Virus record (IMG/VR): IMGVR_UViG_3300045902_000773
Span: 1 to 27,775 of that record
Reading direction: 5' to 3' (one strand)
Source: a virus
Length of the DNA: 27,775 nt
The notes under the pieces were generated by a model. The model ran no database searches. It saw nothing but the letters and a program-made list of their open reading frames with translations, and was not told the DNA's origin. Position 1 is the stretch's first letter. Every line of letters begins with the position of its first letter. Shown one piece after another: positions 21,214-27,597 of this stretch. The translations under genes and the position numbers were made by a program.

Positions 21214-21684
21214 ATGGCAACTCTGAACAACTTCGACGCAAACCAGGTTGACCCGTCCGTCGCGCTCGATCCGCTCCCCGCGGGCAAGTACCTCGCCGTC
21301 GTCTCCGAGTCGGAGCTCAAGCCGACCAAGACCGGGGGCGGCAAGTACCTGCAGCTGACCTTCCAGATCATCGACGGCGAGTTCAAGGGCCGCCTGGTCT
21401 GGGCCCGCCTCAACCTCGAGAACAAGAGCGAAATGACGGTCAAGATCGCTCGCGGCGAGCTCTCGGCCATCTGCCGCGCCATCGGCGTCATGCAGCCGAG
21501 GGACTCGGTCGAGCTCCACAACGTGCCGCTGGAGATCAACGTCGGGCTGAAGAAGCGCGATGACACGGGCGAGCCTGTCAACGTGATCAAGGGCTACGGC
21601 AAGAAGGGCGGCGGGGGCTCGCCGGTGAGCGCTCGTGCTCCCGTCGGCGTCGGCCCGGGGAGCACGCCGCCCTGGAAGCGATGA
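21214..21684 (+). CDS. DUF669 phage protein, probable ssDNA-binding
   Basis: A 156-aa protein with the DUF669 pattern: PLPAGKYLAVVSESELKPTK, then GGGKYLQLTFQIIDGEFKGR and VWARLNLENKS, then EINVGLKKRDDTGEPVNVI. The family sits beside Sak4-like ATPases in phages and is thought to bind single-stranded DNA, with an OB-like fold. The C-terminal tail is Gly/Pro-rich and ends WKR, unlike the acidic tip of bacterial SSB. AAAGGAA precedes the ATG. Right after the stop a pentanucleotide array begins. Confidence 0.88.
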   Translation: MATLNNFDANQVDPSVALDPLPAGKYLAVVSESELKPTKTGGGKYLQLTFQIIDGEFKGRLVWARLNLENKSEMTVKIARGELSAICRAIGVMQPRDSVELHNVPLEINVGLKKRDDTGEPVNVIKGYGKKGGGGSPVSARAPVGVGPGSTPPWKR

Positions 21685-21700
21685 AGAGGACAAGTACGGG

Positions 21701-21800
21701 CGAGGTGAGACAAGGCGGGCTGAGTCTTCGCACGGCATGGCGCGGCGGGGATTGGCATGGCCAGGCCCGGCGGGGCGTGACCTGGCTGGGAAAGGCATGG
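21701..21800 (+). repeat. Pentanucleotide-period (NNNGG) array A
   Basis: One hundred bases fall into 20 successive pentamers, 15 of which end in GG (for example CACGG CATGG CGCGG). It fills the gap between the DUF669 gene and the next gene. Words such as CATGGCCAGG are shared with array C. Confidence 0.8.
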
Positions 21801-21856
21801 ACTTAGCCGCCCCGGACCTTGCGGTTCGGGACGGCATTCAAACAAGGAGCACACGA

Positions 21857-22474
21857 ATGAGCACAGCAACAGCGATCGGACCGAGCATCAGCAACGGCGG
21901 CAAGCGGATCATCGACTCGAGCATTCCGTACCGCGTAGAGGTCGAGATCCAGGGCGACGCGGACCTCTTGTTCCACCGCTGGAACTGCGAGGCCGTCGAG
22001 GCCAAGGCGCGCTCGGCCAAGGGATCGGCGGCGAAGAAGACCGACGACATCGAGTCGTACGTCTACCGCAACGACGACGGCGAACTCTGCCTGCCGGGCG
22101 AGTACCTCCGTCAAGCGGTGATCGCGGCAGCCAAGTTCCGGCAGGATCCTCGTTCTCCGCGCAAGAGCGCGCAGGATCTCGTGAAAGCGGCGGTCGTGAG
22201 TCTGACGCCGCTCGCCGGCCTCGGCACCACGCGGTGGGACTACGAGCACAAGTGCCGCGTGCAGGTGCAGCGCAACGGCATCACGCGGGTGCGCCCGGCG
22301 CTCAAGACCGGCTGGTCCGCGGCGTTCGTGTTCATGGTCAACCTGCCGGAGTACGTCTCGCCCGAGATGCTGCACGGGCTGCTCACCGACGCGGGTCGTC
22401 TGGTCGGCCTCGCGGACTTCCGCCCGACCTATGGGCGATTCCGCGTCACGCGGTTCGATGTGCTGGCGGACTGA
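21857..22474 (+). CDS. Phage protein of the recombination module, possibly RAMP-like
   Basis: A 205-aa protein. It begins with a beta strand YRVEVEIQGDADLLFHRW, continues with the motif ESYVYRNDDGELCLPGEYLR, the helix RQAVIAAAKFRQDPRSPRKS, and ends with a Gly-rich turn and strand GRLVGLADFRPTYGRFRV. Homologues, as I recall them, occur in phages beside DUF669/Sak4 genes with no assigned function. The strand order and the late G-rich loop recall the ferredoxin-like RAMP folds of Cas5/Cas7, but this is only a shape-level resemblance. ATG 21857 is chosen because AAGGAG stands 8 bp upstream; longer forms would translate array A. Confidence 0.75.
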   Translation: MSTATAIGPSISNGGKRIIDSSIPYRVEVEIQGDADLLFHRWNCEAVEAKARSAKGSAAKKTDDIESYVYRNDDGELCLPGEYLRQAVIAAAKFRQDPRSPRKSAQDLVKAAVVSLTPLAGLGTTRWDYEHKCRVQVQRNGITRVRPALKTGWSAAFVFMVNLPEYVSPEMLHGLLTDAGRLVGLADFRPTYGRFRVTRFDVLAD

Positions 22475-22529
22475 TGGGCTCTGGTTGGTTATGGCGAGGC
22501 TGGGCATGGTCGGGCGAGGCTTGGCGAGG
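22475..22529 (+). repeat. Pentanucleotide-period (NNNGG) array B
   Basis: Starting directly at the stop of the upstream gene, 22480-22529 reads as ten pentamers, nine of them ending in GG (TCTGG, TATGG, CGAGG, CTGGG, CATGG and so on). It ends 13 bp before the RusA start. Confidence 0.75.
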
Positions 22530-22542
22530 TTCGAACAGACGC

Positions 22543-22914
22543 ATGGAACTCTCTCTCCCACTCCCACCCTCGGCCAATCACTACTACCGGCGCGTCGGCC
22601 GCGCAACGCTGATCAGTCGCGCCGGGCGGGAGTATCGCGCCGGCGTGAAGGCGGCGTTGCTGGCCATGGGCGCTCCCTCCGTGACGGGCCCCCTCACGGT
22701 GTTGGTGATTGTGTACCCGCCAGATCGGAGGCGTCGCGACCTCGACAACCTACTCAAATGCCTGCTCGACTCGCTTCAGCACGGAGGGCTCTACCGAGAT
22801 GACAGCATGATCGATCGGATCGACATCCGCCGCGGCCCATGCACGCGGGGCGGCGGAGTGCATGTGGCAGTCCACGAACTTCAGGGCCCGGTGTGTTCCG
22901 GTCCGGCGAGGTGA
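22543..22914 (+). CDS. rusA: RusA-family Holliday junction resolvase
   Basis: A 123-aa endonuclease of the RusA family, which cuts four-way junctions in symmetrical pairs using acidic residues and magnesium. The N-terminus LPLPPSANHYYRR is typical. The catalytic block is PPDRRRRDLDNLLKCLLDSL, with Asp66 and Asp68, and a further acidic pair Asp86/Asp87 in YRDDSMIDRI. Length matches E. coli RusA (120 aa). The ATG has no strong Shine-Dalgarno apart from the GAGG of array B. In the phage setting it would resolve recombination or branched replication intermediates before packaging. Confidence 0.92.
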   Translation: MELSLPLPPSANHYYRRVGRATLISRAGREYRAGVKAALLAMGAPSVTGPLTVLVIVYPPDRRRRDLDNLLKCLLDSLQHGGLYRDDSMIDRIDIRRGPCTRGGGVHVAVHELQGPVCSGPAR

Positions 22915-23020
22915 GGCCAGGTCTGGATTGGCGTGGCATGGCCAGGCACGTCGGGGCGGTTCGGGACAAGCACGGCCCGGCGTGGCATGGCAAGGCTCGG
23001 CAGGGCTCGGATTGGCGTGA
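22907..23020 (+). repeat. Pentanucleotide-period (NNNGG) array C with one phase slip
   Basis: Pentamers from 22907 (CGAGG TGAGG CCAGG TCTGG ATTGG CGTGG CATGG) run through the RusA stop. The phase slips by one base near 22971 and continues to 23020 (CACGG CCCGG CGTGG CATGG). It fills the gap before the helicase. Confidence 0.8.
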
Positions 23021-23056
23021 GCGCCGGCGTGGCGAAAGCCGCGTCGGCGGATTGAG

Positions 23057-24763
23057 ATGCAACTGCGACCCTATCAAGCCGAAGCGGTAGAGGCGATCTA
23101 CCACCACCTGCGGACCCGCGACGACAACCCCGTCGCGGTGCTTCCGACCGGCTCGGGCAAAACGCCGCTAATCGCGACGATCTGCCGCGACGCCGTCGGC
23201 CAATGGGGCGGACGCGTCGTGCTGCTGGCGCACGTGAAGGAACTCCTCGAGCAGGCGGCCGACAAGCTGCGCGTCATCGCGCCCGATGTGCCCGTGGGCA
23301 TCTACTCGGCTGGCCTCAAACGCAAGGACCTCGGCTACGCCGTCACGGTCGCGGGCATCCAGAGCATCTGGAAGAAGGCGTGCGACCTCGGGCCGGTGGA
23401 CCTGATCATCGTCGACGAAGCGCACATGGTCCCCGCCGAGGACGACGGGATGTATCGGCAGTTCATCGCCGACGCCAAGGTGGTGAACCCGCTGGCGCGG
23501 GTGATCGGGCTGACGGCGACGCCGTTCCGCATGAAGTCCGGCCCGATCTGCGCCCCGACCCCCCACAACATCCTCAACCACGTCTGCTTCGAGGTGGGGG
23601 TGCGCGAACTGATCGTGCAGGGCTTCCTCTCCCCACTGCGGACCAAGGCGGGGCTCCAGAAGGTGAGCACCGACGACCTGCACGTCCGCGCCGGCGAGTT
23701 CGTCGCCAGCGAGGTCGAGGACCTGATGGACAAGGACGCCCTGGTCGAGGGCGCGTGCGCCGAGATCGTCGAGCACACCCGCCCCCCACACGACCGCGCG
23801 GCCACGCTGATCTTCTCATCGGGCATCCGCCACGGGCAGCACATCGTCGAGGTCCTGAAGTCCAGGCACGGCGTCGAGTGCGGGTTCGTGTCGGGGGAGA
23901 CGCCCGCGGGCGTGCGGAGCGCCATCCTGGATCGCTTCCGCTCGGGGGCGCTCAAGTACCTCTGCAACGTCAACGTCCTGACCACCGGCTTCGATGCACC
24001 GCACATCGACTGCGTGGCGCTCGTGAGGCCGACGATGTCGCCCGGCCTGTACTACCAGATGGTGGGCAGAGGCTTCCGACTCCACCCCGGCAAGTCCGAC
24101 TGCCTCGTGCTGGACTTTGGCGGCAACGTGCTCCGCCACGGTCCGGTCGACGCGATCCGCATCGCCACCGACGATCGCGGCGAGGGCGAGGCCCCGGCGA
24201 AGGAATGCCCGCAGTGCCACGCGCTCATCGCGGCGGGCTACCAGACCTGCCCGCAGTGCGGTCACCAATTCCCCGAGCCCAACAAGCAGAAGCACGAGGC
24301 GCAGGCCAGCACCGAGGGCATCCTCAGCGGCCAGACCACGCGCGAGGAACACCGCGTCAGCGAGACGACGTACCACGTGCACTCCAAGCGCAGCGACCCA
24401 TCCGCACCGCTGACCATGCGCGTCGAGTATCGAGTCGGTTTCAACCGCTACTTCCGCGAGTGGGTCTGCTTCGACCACACCGGATATGCCCGCACGAAGG
24501 CCGAGGCGTGGTGGCGGGCGCGGTCCGTCGAGCCCGTTCCCGGTGGCACGGAGGAGGCGGTGGAGTTGGCGAAGGCCGGAGCGCTCGCGCCGGCGCTGCA
24601 CATCACGGTTGAAAAGAAGGCGGGCGAGCAGTTCGAGCGGGTGGTGGCGCACCGCCTGGGCGACAAGCCGCCGCGCCTCGAGGGCGATGTGGGCCTCCCC
24701 GAGTACGTGCCCGCGCCGGTGGGCACGACATACGGCATCCCCGATGACGAGATTCCCTTCTGA
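23057..24763 (+). CDS. Phage DEAD/DEAH-box helicase with zinc ribbon
   Basis: A 568-aa superfamily 2 helicase. It starts with a Q-like motif LRPYQAEAVEAI, followed by Walker A PTGSGKT (30-36), DEAH (120-123), motif III GLTATPFR, and motif VI QMVGRGFR (334-341). A zinc ribbon follows with Cys384, Cys387, Cys398 and Cys401. The C-terminal 150 residues have no recognised fold; they include VEYRVGFNRYFREWVCFDH, resembling a small DNA-binding appendage. This type of helicase is common in phage replication modules and would unwind DNA for the primase or in recombination. The next gene follows after 14 bp. Confidence 0.93.
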   Translation: MQLRPYQAEAVEAIYHHLRTRDDNPVAVLPTGSGKTPLIATICRDAVGQWGGRVVLLAHVKELLEQAADKLRVIAPDVPVGIYSAGLKRKDLGYAVTVAGIQSIWKKACDLGPVDLIIVDEAHMVPAEDDGMYRQFIADAKVVNPLARVIGLTATPFRMKSGPICAPTPHNILNHVCFEVGVRELIVQGFLSPLRTKAGLQKVSTDDLHVRAGEFVASEVEDLMDKDALVEGACAEIVEHTRPPHDRAATLIFSSGIRHGQHIVEVLKSRHGVECGFVSGETPAGVRSAILDRFRSGALKYLCNVNVLTTGFDAPHIDCVALVRPTMSPGLYYQMVGRGFRLHPGKSDCLVLDFGGNVLRHGPVDAIRIATDDRGEGEAPAKECPQCHALIAAGYQTCPQCGHQFPEPNKQKHEAQASTEGILSGQTTREEHRVSETTYHVHSKRSDPSAPLTMRVEYRVGFNRYFREWVCFDHTGYARTKAEAWWRARSVEPVPGGTEEAVELAKAGALAPALHITVEKKAGEQFERVVAHRLGDKPPRLEGDVGLPEYVPAPVGTTYGIPDDEIPF

Positions 24764-27420: not shown

Positions 27421-27597
27421 ACACATACACACACTTCTTTCTCTCTTTCACCTTCTTACCCCCACCCCCGCGTGCGCGTATGTGTGTCTGCACGCACGCG
27501 CGAGGGGGGGTGAAAGAAGAAAGAAGGGAAAGAAGCCCCTGCGCACGCGCCAGCGGGGTTTTCGTGGGTGAAAGGAGGGGCACGGGGGTGAAAGAAG
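27376..27597 (+). repeat. GGTGAAAGAAG iteron-like repeats, candidate origin
   Basis: GGTGAAAGAAG occurs at 27387-27397, 27509-27519 and 27587-27597, with one-mismatch copies at 27376-27386 and 27567-27577 and an inverted partial copy at 27445-27452. Such 11-bp repeats next to a primase gene suggest an origin bound by the replication protein; unproven. Confidence 0.5.

Follow-up and report, generated by a model that had tools for sequence, protein, structure and literature searches.

Three arrays of five-base units and the RAMP-like gene lying among them, in an IMG/VR virus record of 27,775 bases (analysed over its whole length and hereafter called the window), very probably form a VIPR system. 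Viral Interference Programmable Repeat systems are described from phage SUSP1 (the model phage) and a P. fulva prophage in a 2026 bioRxiv preprint that is not peer reviewed (PMC13142463). According to this preprint, which counts 667 systems, the phage RAMP protein Vipr is paired with vrRNAs of alternating GGY and NN that carry a structured tail, the arrays comprising 9-16 YNNGG repeats; the NN pairs recognise double-stranded DNA, skipping one base for each pair, and transcription is repressed by the complex. We assign the window locus to this type from its homology to the SUSP1 protein ALH47069, the joint gain and loss of arrays and vipr, and the hairpin tails on two of the arrays. Feature by feature, the locus encodes a predicted single-RRM RAMP protein homologous to the SUSP1 protein, GGYNN arrays flank vipr, a structured 3' tail follows arrays A and C but not B, and a 1-nt skip at the wobble base is found for the clade and, in the window, for guides A1 and C (Table 1).

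Table 1. Coordinates of the array-bearing locus and of the altered target sites within the window.
Feature	Position	Strand	Details
Array A, guide A1	21699..21733	+	Seven partly degenerate units, NN: GA GA AA GG GA TT AC
Array A, guide A2	21734..21800	+	13 GGYNN units, NN: AT GC GG TT AT CA CC GG GT CT TG AA AT
Array A, vrRNA-like 3' tail	21806..21835	+	Hairpin GCCGCCCCGGACC-TTGC-GGTTCGGGACGGC, then ATT
vipr, single-RRM RAMP (Cas7-like) protein, 205 aa	21857..22474	+	PHROG 4652, SUSP1 homology, predicted fold
Array B, ~10 units, without tail hairpin	22478..22534	+	Ends ~10 nt upstream of the rusA start
rusA allele inside the cassette	22543..22914	+	RusA PF05866
Array C, ~27 units, one 1-nt slip near 22965	22885..23020	+	Main guide directed to the helicase motif I region
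Array C, vrRNA-like 3' tail	23022..23049	+	CGCCGGCGTGGC-GAAA-GCCGCGTCGGCG, then GATT; helicase gene starts 7 nt further on
Altered own target of guide A1 in DUF669	21559..21579	+	DDTGEPV, 9/14 match
Altered own target of guide C in the helicase gene	23123..23173	+	Own VLPTGSGKTPLI where targets have VIPTGGGKTPVI

Periodic arrays and their unit motif

On the + strand of the window, GG recurs strictly every 5 bp at 21734-21775 (9 GG), 22493-22529 (8), 22900-22946 (10) and 22974-23015 (9), and with degenerate units counted the arrays cover ~21699-21800, 22478-22534 and 22885-23020, in the gaps between DUF669, the RAMP-like gene, rusA and the helicase gene. The best 10-unit stretch scores 10/10; Markov-simulated versions of the window, 600 in all, reach a maximum of 7-8. 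Five is the only prominent period (10 being its harmonic), and a whole-window scan found no GG-per-5-bp runs on the - strand or in the remainder of the + strand. The strict 5-bp period in three arrays of the same orientation, as reported by the first-pass annotation, is therefore real. Its gap lengths of ~100 and ~55 bp hold for arrays A and B, while the ~114 bp given for array C is too short, this array being nearer 130 bp with one 1-nt slip. The words CATGGCCAGG and ATTGGC, which it listed as common to arrays A and C, are indeed present in both, but amount to just two or three common units that need no special explanation.

A scan of viral contigs returned at least 120 stretches with nine consecutive GGNNN units, and nearly all of the matches listed were diverse pentamer arrays, often several per contig and on one strand. 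Pooling 437 distinct related arrays (4747 units) gave GGYNN as the unit, where Y is a pyrimidine and NN are free: position 3 is C in 73% of units, T in 22%, A in 4% and G in 1%, with little base preference at the last two positions. The earlier description of pentamers ending in GG thus has the right period, and GGYNN is the better motif. Very long arrays, with up to 43-44 strict units or ~60 when gaps are included, occur in L031, L194, L151-L153 and L164. Rfam, searched at E<=1, reported no RNA family and no hammerhead in the arrays.

Hairpin tails were evaluated by shuffling. The array C hairpin scores 22 (maximum 16 in 20 shuffles), and across related arrays a hairpin lies within 50 nt in 146/764 cases, against 41-56 (about 47 on average) after shuffling. 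Stems differ in sequence among relatives with their pairing kept, GNRA-like loops being the commonest, and the array A hairpin recurs in L136 with a different guide. Array B is short and, unlike A and C, has no tail hairpin.

By Pfam and PHROG, the surrounding operon encodes a Sak4-like AAA protein, DUF669 (annotated as SSB), the PHROG-4652 protein, RusA, a ResIII helicase and a Prim-Pol. Elsewhere in the window, a tRNA gene at the contig start (52-125) is possibly an attachment site, and a low-complexity purine/pyrimidine stretch past the primase gene (27430-27540) gave weak, sub-threshold miRNA-family matches that are surely due to chance.

A predicted Cas7-like protein and its cassette

The HMM of the window protein's family matches SUSP1 ALH47069 with 113 bits, and hhalign of this family against ALH47069 gives a probability of 99.8. 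An AF2 model of the vipr product (pLDDT 87.7) has CRISPR Cas7/Csm3 subunits as its best PDB matches (Foldseek E 7e-7; Z up to 12.4 over 163 residues), and the model identifies the product as a predicted small Cas7-like RAMP protein with a single RRM core. In phage SUSP1, GGYNN arrays at 27.6-29.2 kb flank ALH47069 (28474-29061), and from this locus we infer that ALH47069 is the Vipr of the preprint's SUSP1 system. The nearest cellular copies, at 93-97% identity, are in Phycisphaerales MAGs, and the closest relatives of the window phage are in Phycisphaerales genomes.

Relatives of vipr are immediately preceded or followed by arrays of the same orientation. Conversely, among 114 array-bearing loci gathered without using the vipr gene, 81 carry a vipr homolog detected by HMM, in most cases no more than 50 bp away from an array and sharing its strand. 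For the other 33 loci (among L011-L130), a vipr homolog was not detected in the stretch fetched; these could be VIPR loci of other types, truncated contigs or ordinary G-rich repeats. A further case is L394, where three adjacent GGYNN arrays (168-313) lie in a fetched stretch without vipr, and one of their guides matches Sak4 orthologs.

Newly fetched relatives of the neighbouring genes, in two sets that share contigs, gave a consistent picture: vipr and arrays are both present in 8 of 78 helicase relatives and both absent in 66, with arrays alone in 4, the corresponding values for 79 DUF669 relatives being 8, 67 and 4. The calls of arrays without vipr are mostly short chance runs. RusA and the helicase adjoin vipr and are also found in VIPR-less siblings, and in most of the closest of these rusA follows DUF669 by 21-30 bp. 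The rusA allele tracks the cassette: identity to the window allele is 85-97% in most vipr-bearing siblings (55% in L398) and mostly 54-58% in close siblings without vipr. Because arrays and vipr are present or absent together and the rusA allele differs with vipr status, the block from array A to array C, with vipr, array B and rusA between them, behaves as one cassette that is gained and lost as a unit. Non-periodic spacers at these borders in related phages, which the first-pass annotation had named as what would speak against its proposal, were seen only in siblings without the vipr gene, and this distribution supports reading the arrays as guides.

Target matches with a one-nucleotide skip

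The NN strings of 624 guide families were compared with the fetched sequences, arrays masked, allowing skips of 0 to 3 nucleotides. A gapped score of at least 18 was reached by 22 families at skip 1, none at skip 0, none at skip 2 and two at skip 3, and by 0-3 families when the order was shuffled. Only the 1-nt skip thus yields an excess of targets, which indicates that the NN letters are the target code.

Codon frames were analysed on one best target per guide family and taken from protein homology, because frames from the longest ORF or GC3 were misleading in this GC-rich DNA (shadow ORFs). Fourteen families have a target homologous to a protein of the window (DUF669 for 8, helicase for 3, Sak4 for 2 and vipr for 1), and in every one of them the skipped base is codon position 3 (wobble). 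In ten further families the wobble-frame reading carries a Pfam domain, namely AlpA/HTH (three), DUF3799, ParB/DNA methylase (three), Prim-Pol, RecD2 and terminase. Overall, the wobble base is skipped in 24/24 families with a known target frame, two more families being without one. Locus counts here are not independent events, given shared ancestry, and families were collapsed where possible.

The AlpA-like HTH target (L230, 2128-2421, - strand) lies in a Phycisphaerales genome, and three guide families converge there. Neighbouring sites in this one gene are matched by four guides from the closest relatives of the window (L136/L355, L229, L134/L347 and L228). In related phages, three guide families have their targets in ParB_N or ParB/DNA-methylase genes (L288 8785-9717, L317 7214-7708 and L279 8385-9695).

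Guides of the window beside altered copies of their targets

Read with the 1-nt skip, guide A1 matches the DUF669 codons for DDNGEFT at 14/14 bases in 100 loci, and the window's own DUF669 is altered there (Table 1). This guide is carried only by the window and L221 (30/32 match in the latter), and these two are also the only DUF669 orthologs with DDTGEPV, although the two proteins are just 65% identical overall. The window DUF669 is ~90-100% identical to that of L321 except at 21551-21590, a stretch that shares 36/40 nucleotides with L221, as if the putatively resistant patch had arrived together with guide A1.

The array C guide is shared with L222, whose version matches the helicase motif I codons at 25/26 bases. 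Once the slip is allowed for, the window's version matches 28/34 bases in 93 helicase orthologs, against 24/34 in its own helicase (PTGSGKT); with the 1-nt slip, this guide might be broken. For guide A2 no target was found: an exact collection scan with 9 NN gave no match, an 8-NN piece gave six matches of which none extends, and up to 3 mismatches gave none in 12 related genomes or in 298 genomes of the class. Neither array B (exact collection scan included) nor the 3' end of array C gave a target in the searches made, and an exact collection scan with a piece of guide C had no match.

More broadly, the own ortholog ranks low as a match to its guide, with a mean percentile of 0.21 among all orthologs (Wilcoxon p=1.5e-4) and 0.18 among close orthologs (p=3e-4), each over 17 target sites; percentiles were used since comparing the own site with the best target is biased by choosing the best. 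Of the guides, 24 share a locus with an own ortholog of their target, and 22 of these sit in the array nearest that ortholog; given how many arrays each locus has, chance would place 8.1 there, and none of 200,000 simulations gave as many as 22. As the 24 include variants of one helicase guide, and convergent guides are not independent, we also collapsed the list, which leaves 13 of 14 guides in the nearest array (~4.5 expected, summed by hand). The distance from guide to own ortholog is typically 50-450 bp, a few being far larger. The simplest reading of these sequence comparisons is that guide and resistant allele would stay linked under recombination.

From this nearest-array excess, the low rank of own sites and the restriction of DDTGEPV to carriers of guide A1, we lean, by a narrow margin over even odds, towards guides being kept beside the self-resistant allele of the attacked gene and travelling with it by homologous recombination, as a linked poison-antidote pair that would drive the turnover of replication genes. 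The main rival for this self-sparing and linkage part is autoregulation, in which the locus is still VIPR and the guides beside DUF669 and the helicase gene tune their own operon rather than attack siblings. It would account for guides adjoining the own homolog of their target and for own sites that still match ~70% of guide bases, but not readily for own sites that match worse than most orthologs, nor for a DDTGEPV allele found only with the guide it escapes, and we regard it as improbable.

Other explanations of the arrays

The first-pass annotation had suggested recombination hot spots that invite module exchange; on this reading the 5-bp motif would recruit Sak4 or DUF669. Exchange there is: the cassette with its rusA allele is swapped as a block, close relatives show mosaic guides and tails, and DUF669 carries the 40-nt L221-like patch. 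However, siblings without VIPR swap these genes too, with no arrays present, the arrays track vipr rather than sak4 or DUF669, and the 5-bp period serves a target code in which NN match target codons under a single skip rule, so that hot spots are very unlikely as the explanation of the motif.

Slightly less credible still are leader RNAs that regulate the downstream operon gene, either bound by a ring- or filament-forming protein (TRAP-like) or folded as two-tier G-quadruplexes. A GGNNN unit fits both a two-tier G4 and a 5-nt protein footprint, and the arrays lie just upstream of start codons. Such leaders predict free NN, yet NN match foreign codons far above shuffles; G is the rarest base at position 3 and A is rare, and some cassettes have long tandem array sets downstream of vipr. 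What remains of the earlier suggestion of protein-binding arrays or G-rich RNA is that the arrays would act as RNA guides, and the RAMP-like protein is expected to bind them rather than Sak4 or DUF669, the candidates named then. Decayed simple tandem repeats can be set aside as having a negligible chance, for although short-period repeats are common in intergenic DNA and TRF reports weak arrays in the window, which it describes poorly, the units share only GGY, NN are nearly uniform with GG and phase kept (the opposite of decay), and NN carry the target information.

Proposed mechanism

By extension from the preprint (PMC13142463), the arrays of the VIPR locus would be transcribed into vrRNAs, Vipr would coat the GGY triplets, the exposed NN pairs would read double-stranded DNA, and binding would repress the target. 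We further propose that the targets crippled in sibling phages or prophages sharing the cell would be the DUF669 single-strand-binding protein, the helicase and Sak4, and that regulators (AlpA) of co-resident siblings would likewise be hit. Because each guide tends to adjoin its own altered target copy, guide and resistant allele could move together in phage recombination.

Comparison with known systems

Set against the preprint (PMC13142463), the locus resembles VIPR in its phage-encoded RRM-core RAMP protein, flanking GGY/NN tandem arrays and structured 3' tail, as well as in the 1-nt skip at the wobble base and in guides against rival mobile elements, other VIPR systems among them. It differs from VIPR as described there by its place within a replication/recombination operon (Sak4-DUF669-vipr-RusA-helicase) in relatives of Phycisphaerales prophages, by main targets that are sibling replication genes with guides adjoining the own mismatched copy, by some related arrays of up to 60 units (9-16 in the preprint), and by showing no clear vap accessory gene. 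The 1-nt-skip code, as given there, is here independently confirmed on hundreds of natural arrays without the authors' data, and VIPR is placed in the replication operon of these phages.

The predicted Cas7-like fold is shared with class 1 CRISPR-Cas systems (type III Csm3, and the Cas7 backbones of types VII and IV), as is RNA-guided recognition with periodic non-pairing, inferred for both, but the guide is a noncontiguous GGY/NN string rather than a contiguous spacer. A tandem-repeat scan found no repeat-spacer array, and Pfam and PHROG found no Cas protein among ten neighbouring ORFs. TRAP binding sites are NAG triplets every 5 nt, in which the two spacer nucleotides carry no message; the spacing of a triplet plus two nucleotides of RNA is alike, whereas the NN of the window would specify targets. 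With homing endonucleases and poison-antidote elements, too, the carrier's own allele is altered at the attacked site and linked to the attacker, a likeness of logic and not of cleavage or super-Mendelian spread. New here is the rule that guides are usually found in whichever array lies closest to the phage's own mismatched copy of their target, which is testable and would explain both the avoidance of self-attack and the exchange of guides and alleles, and intergenic sequence may thereby offer a direct way to read phage-phage conflict.
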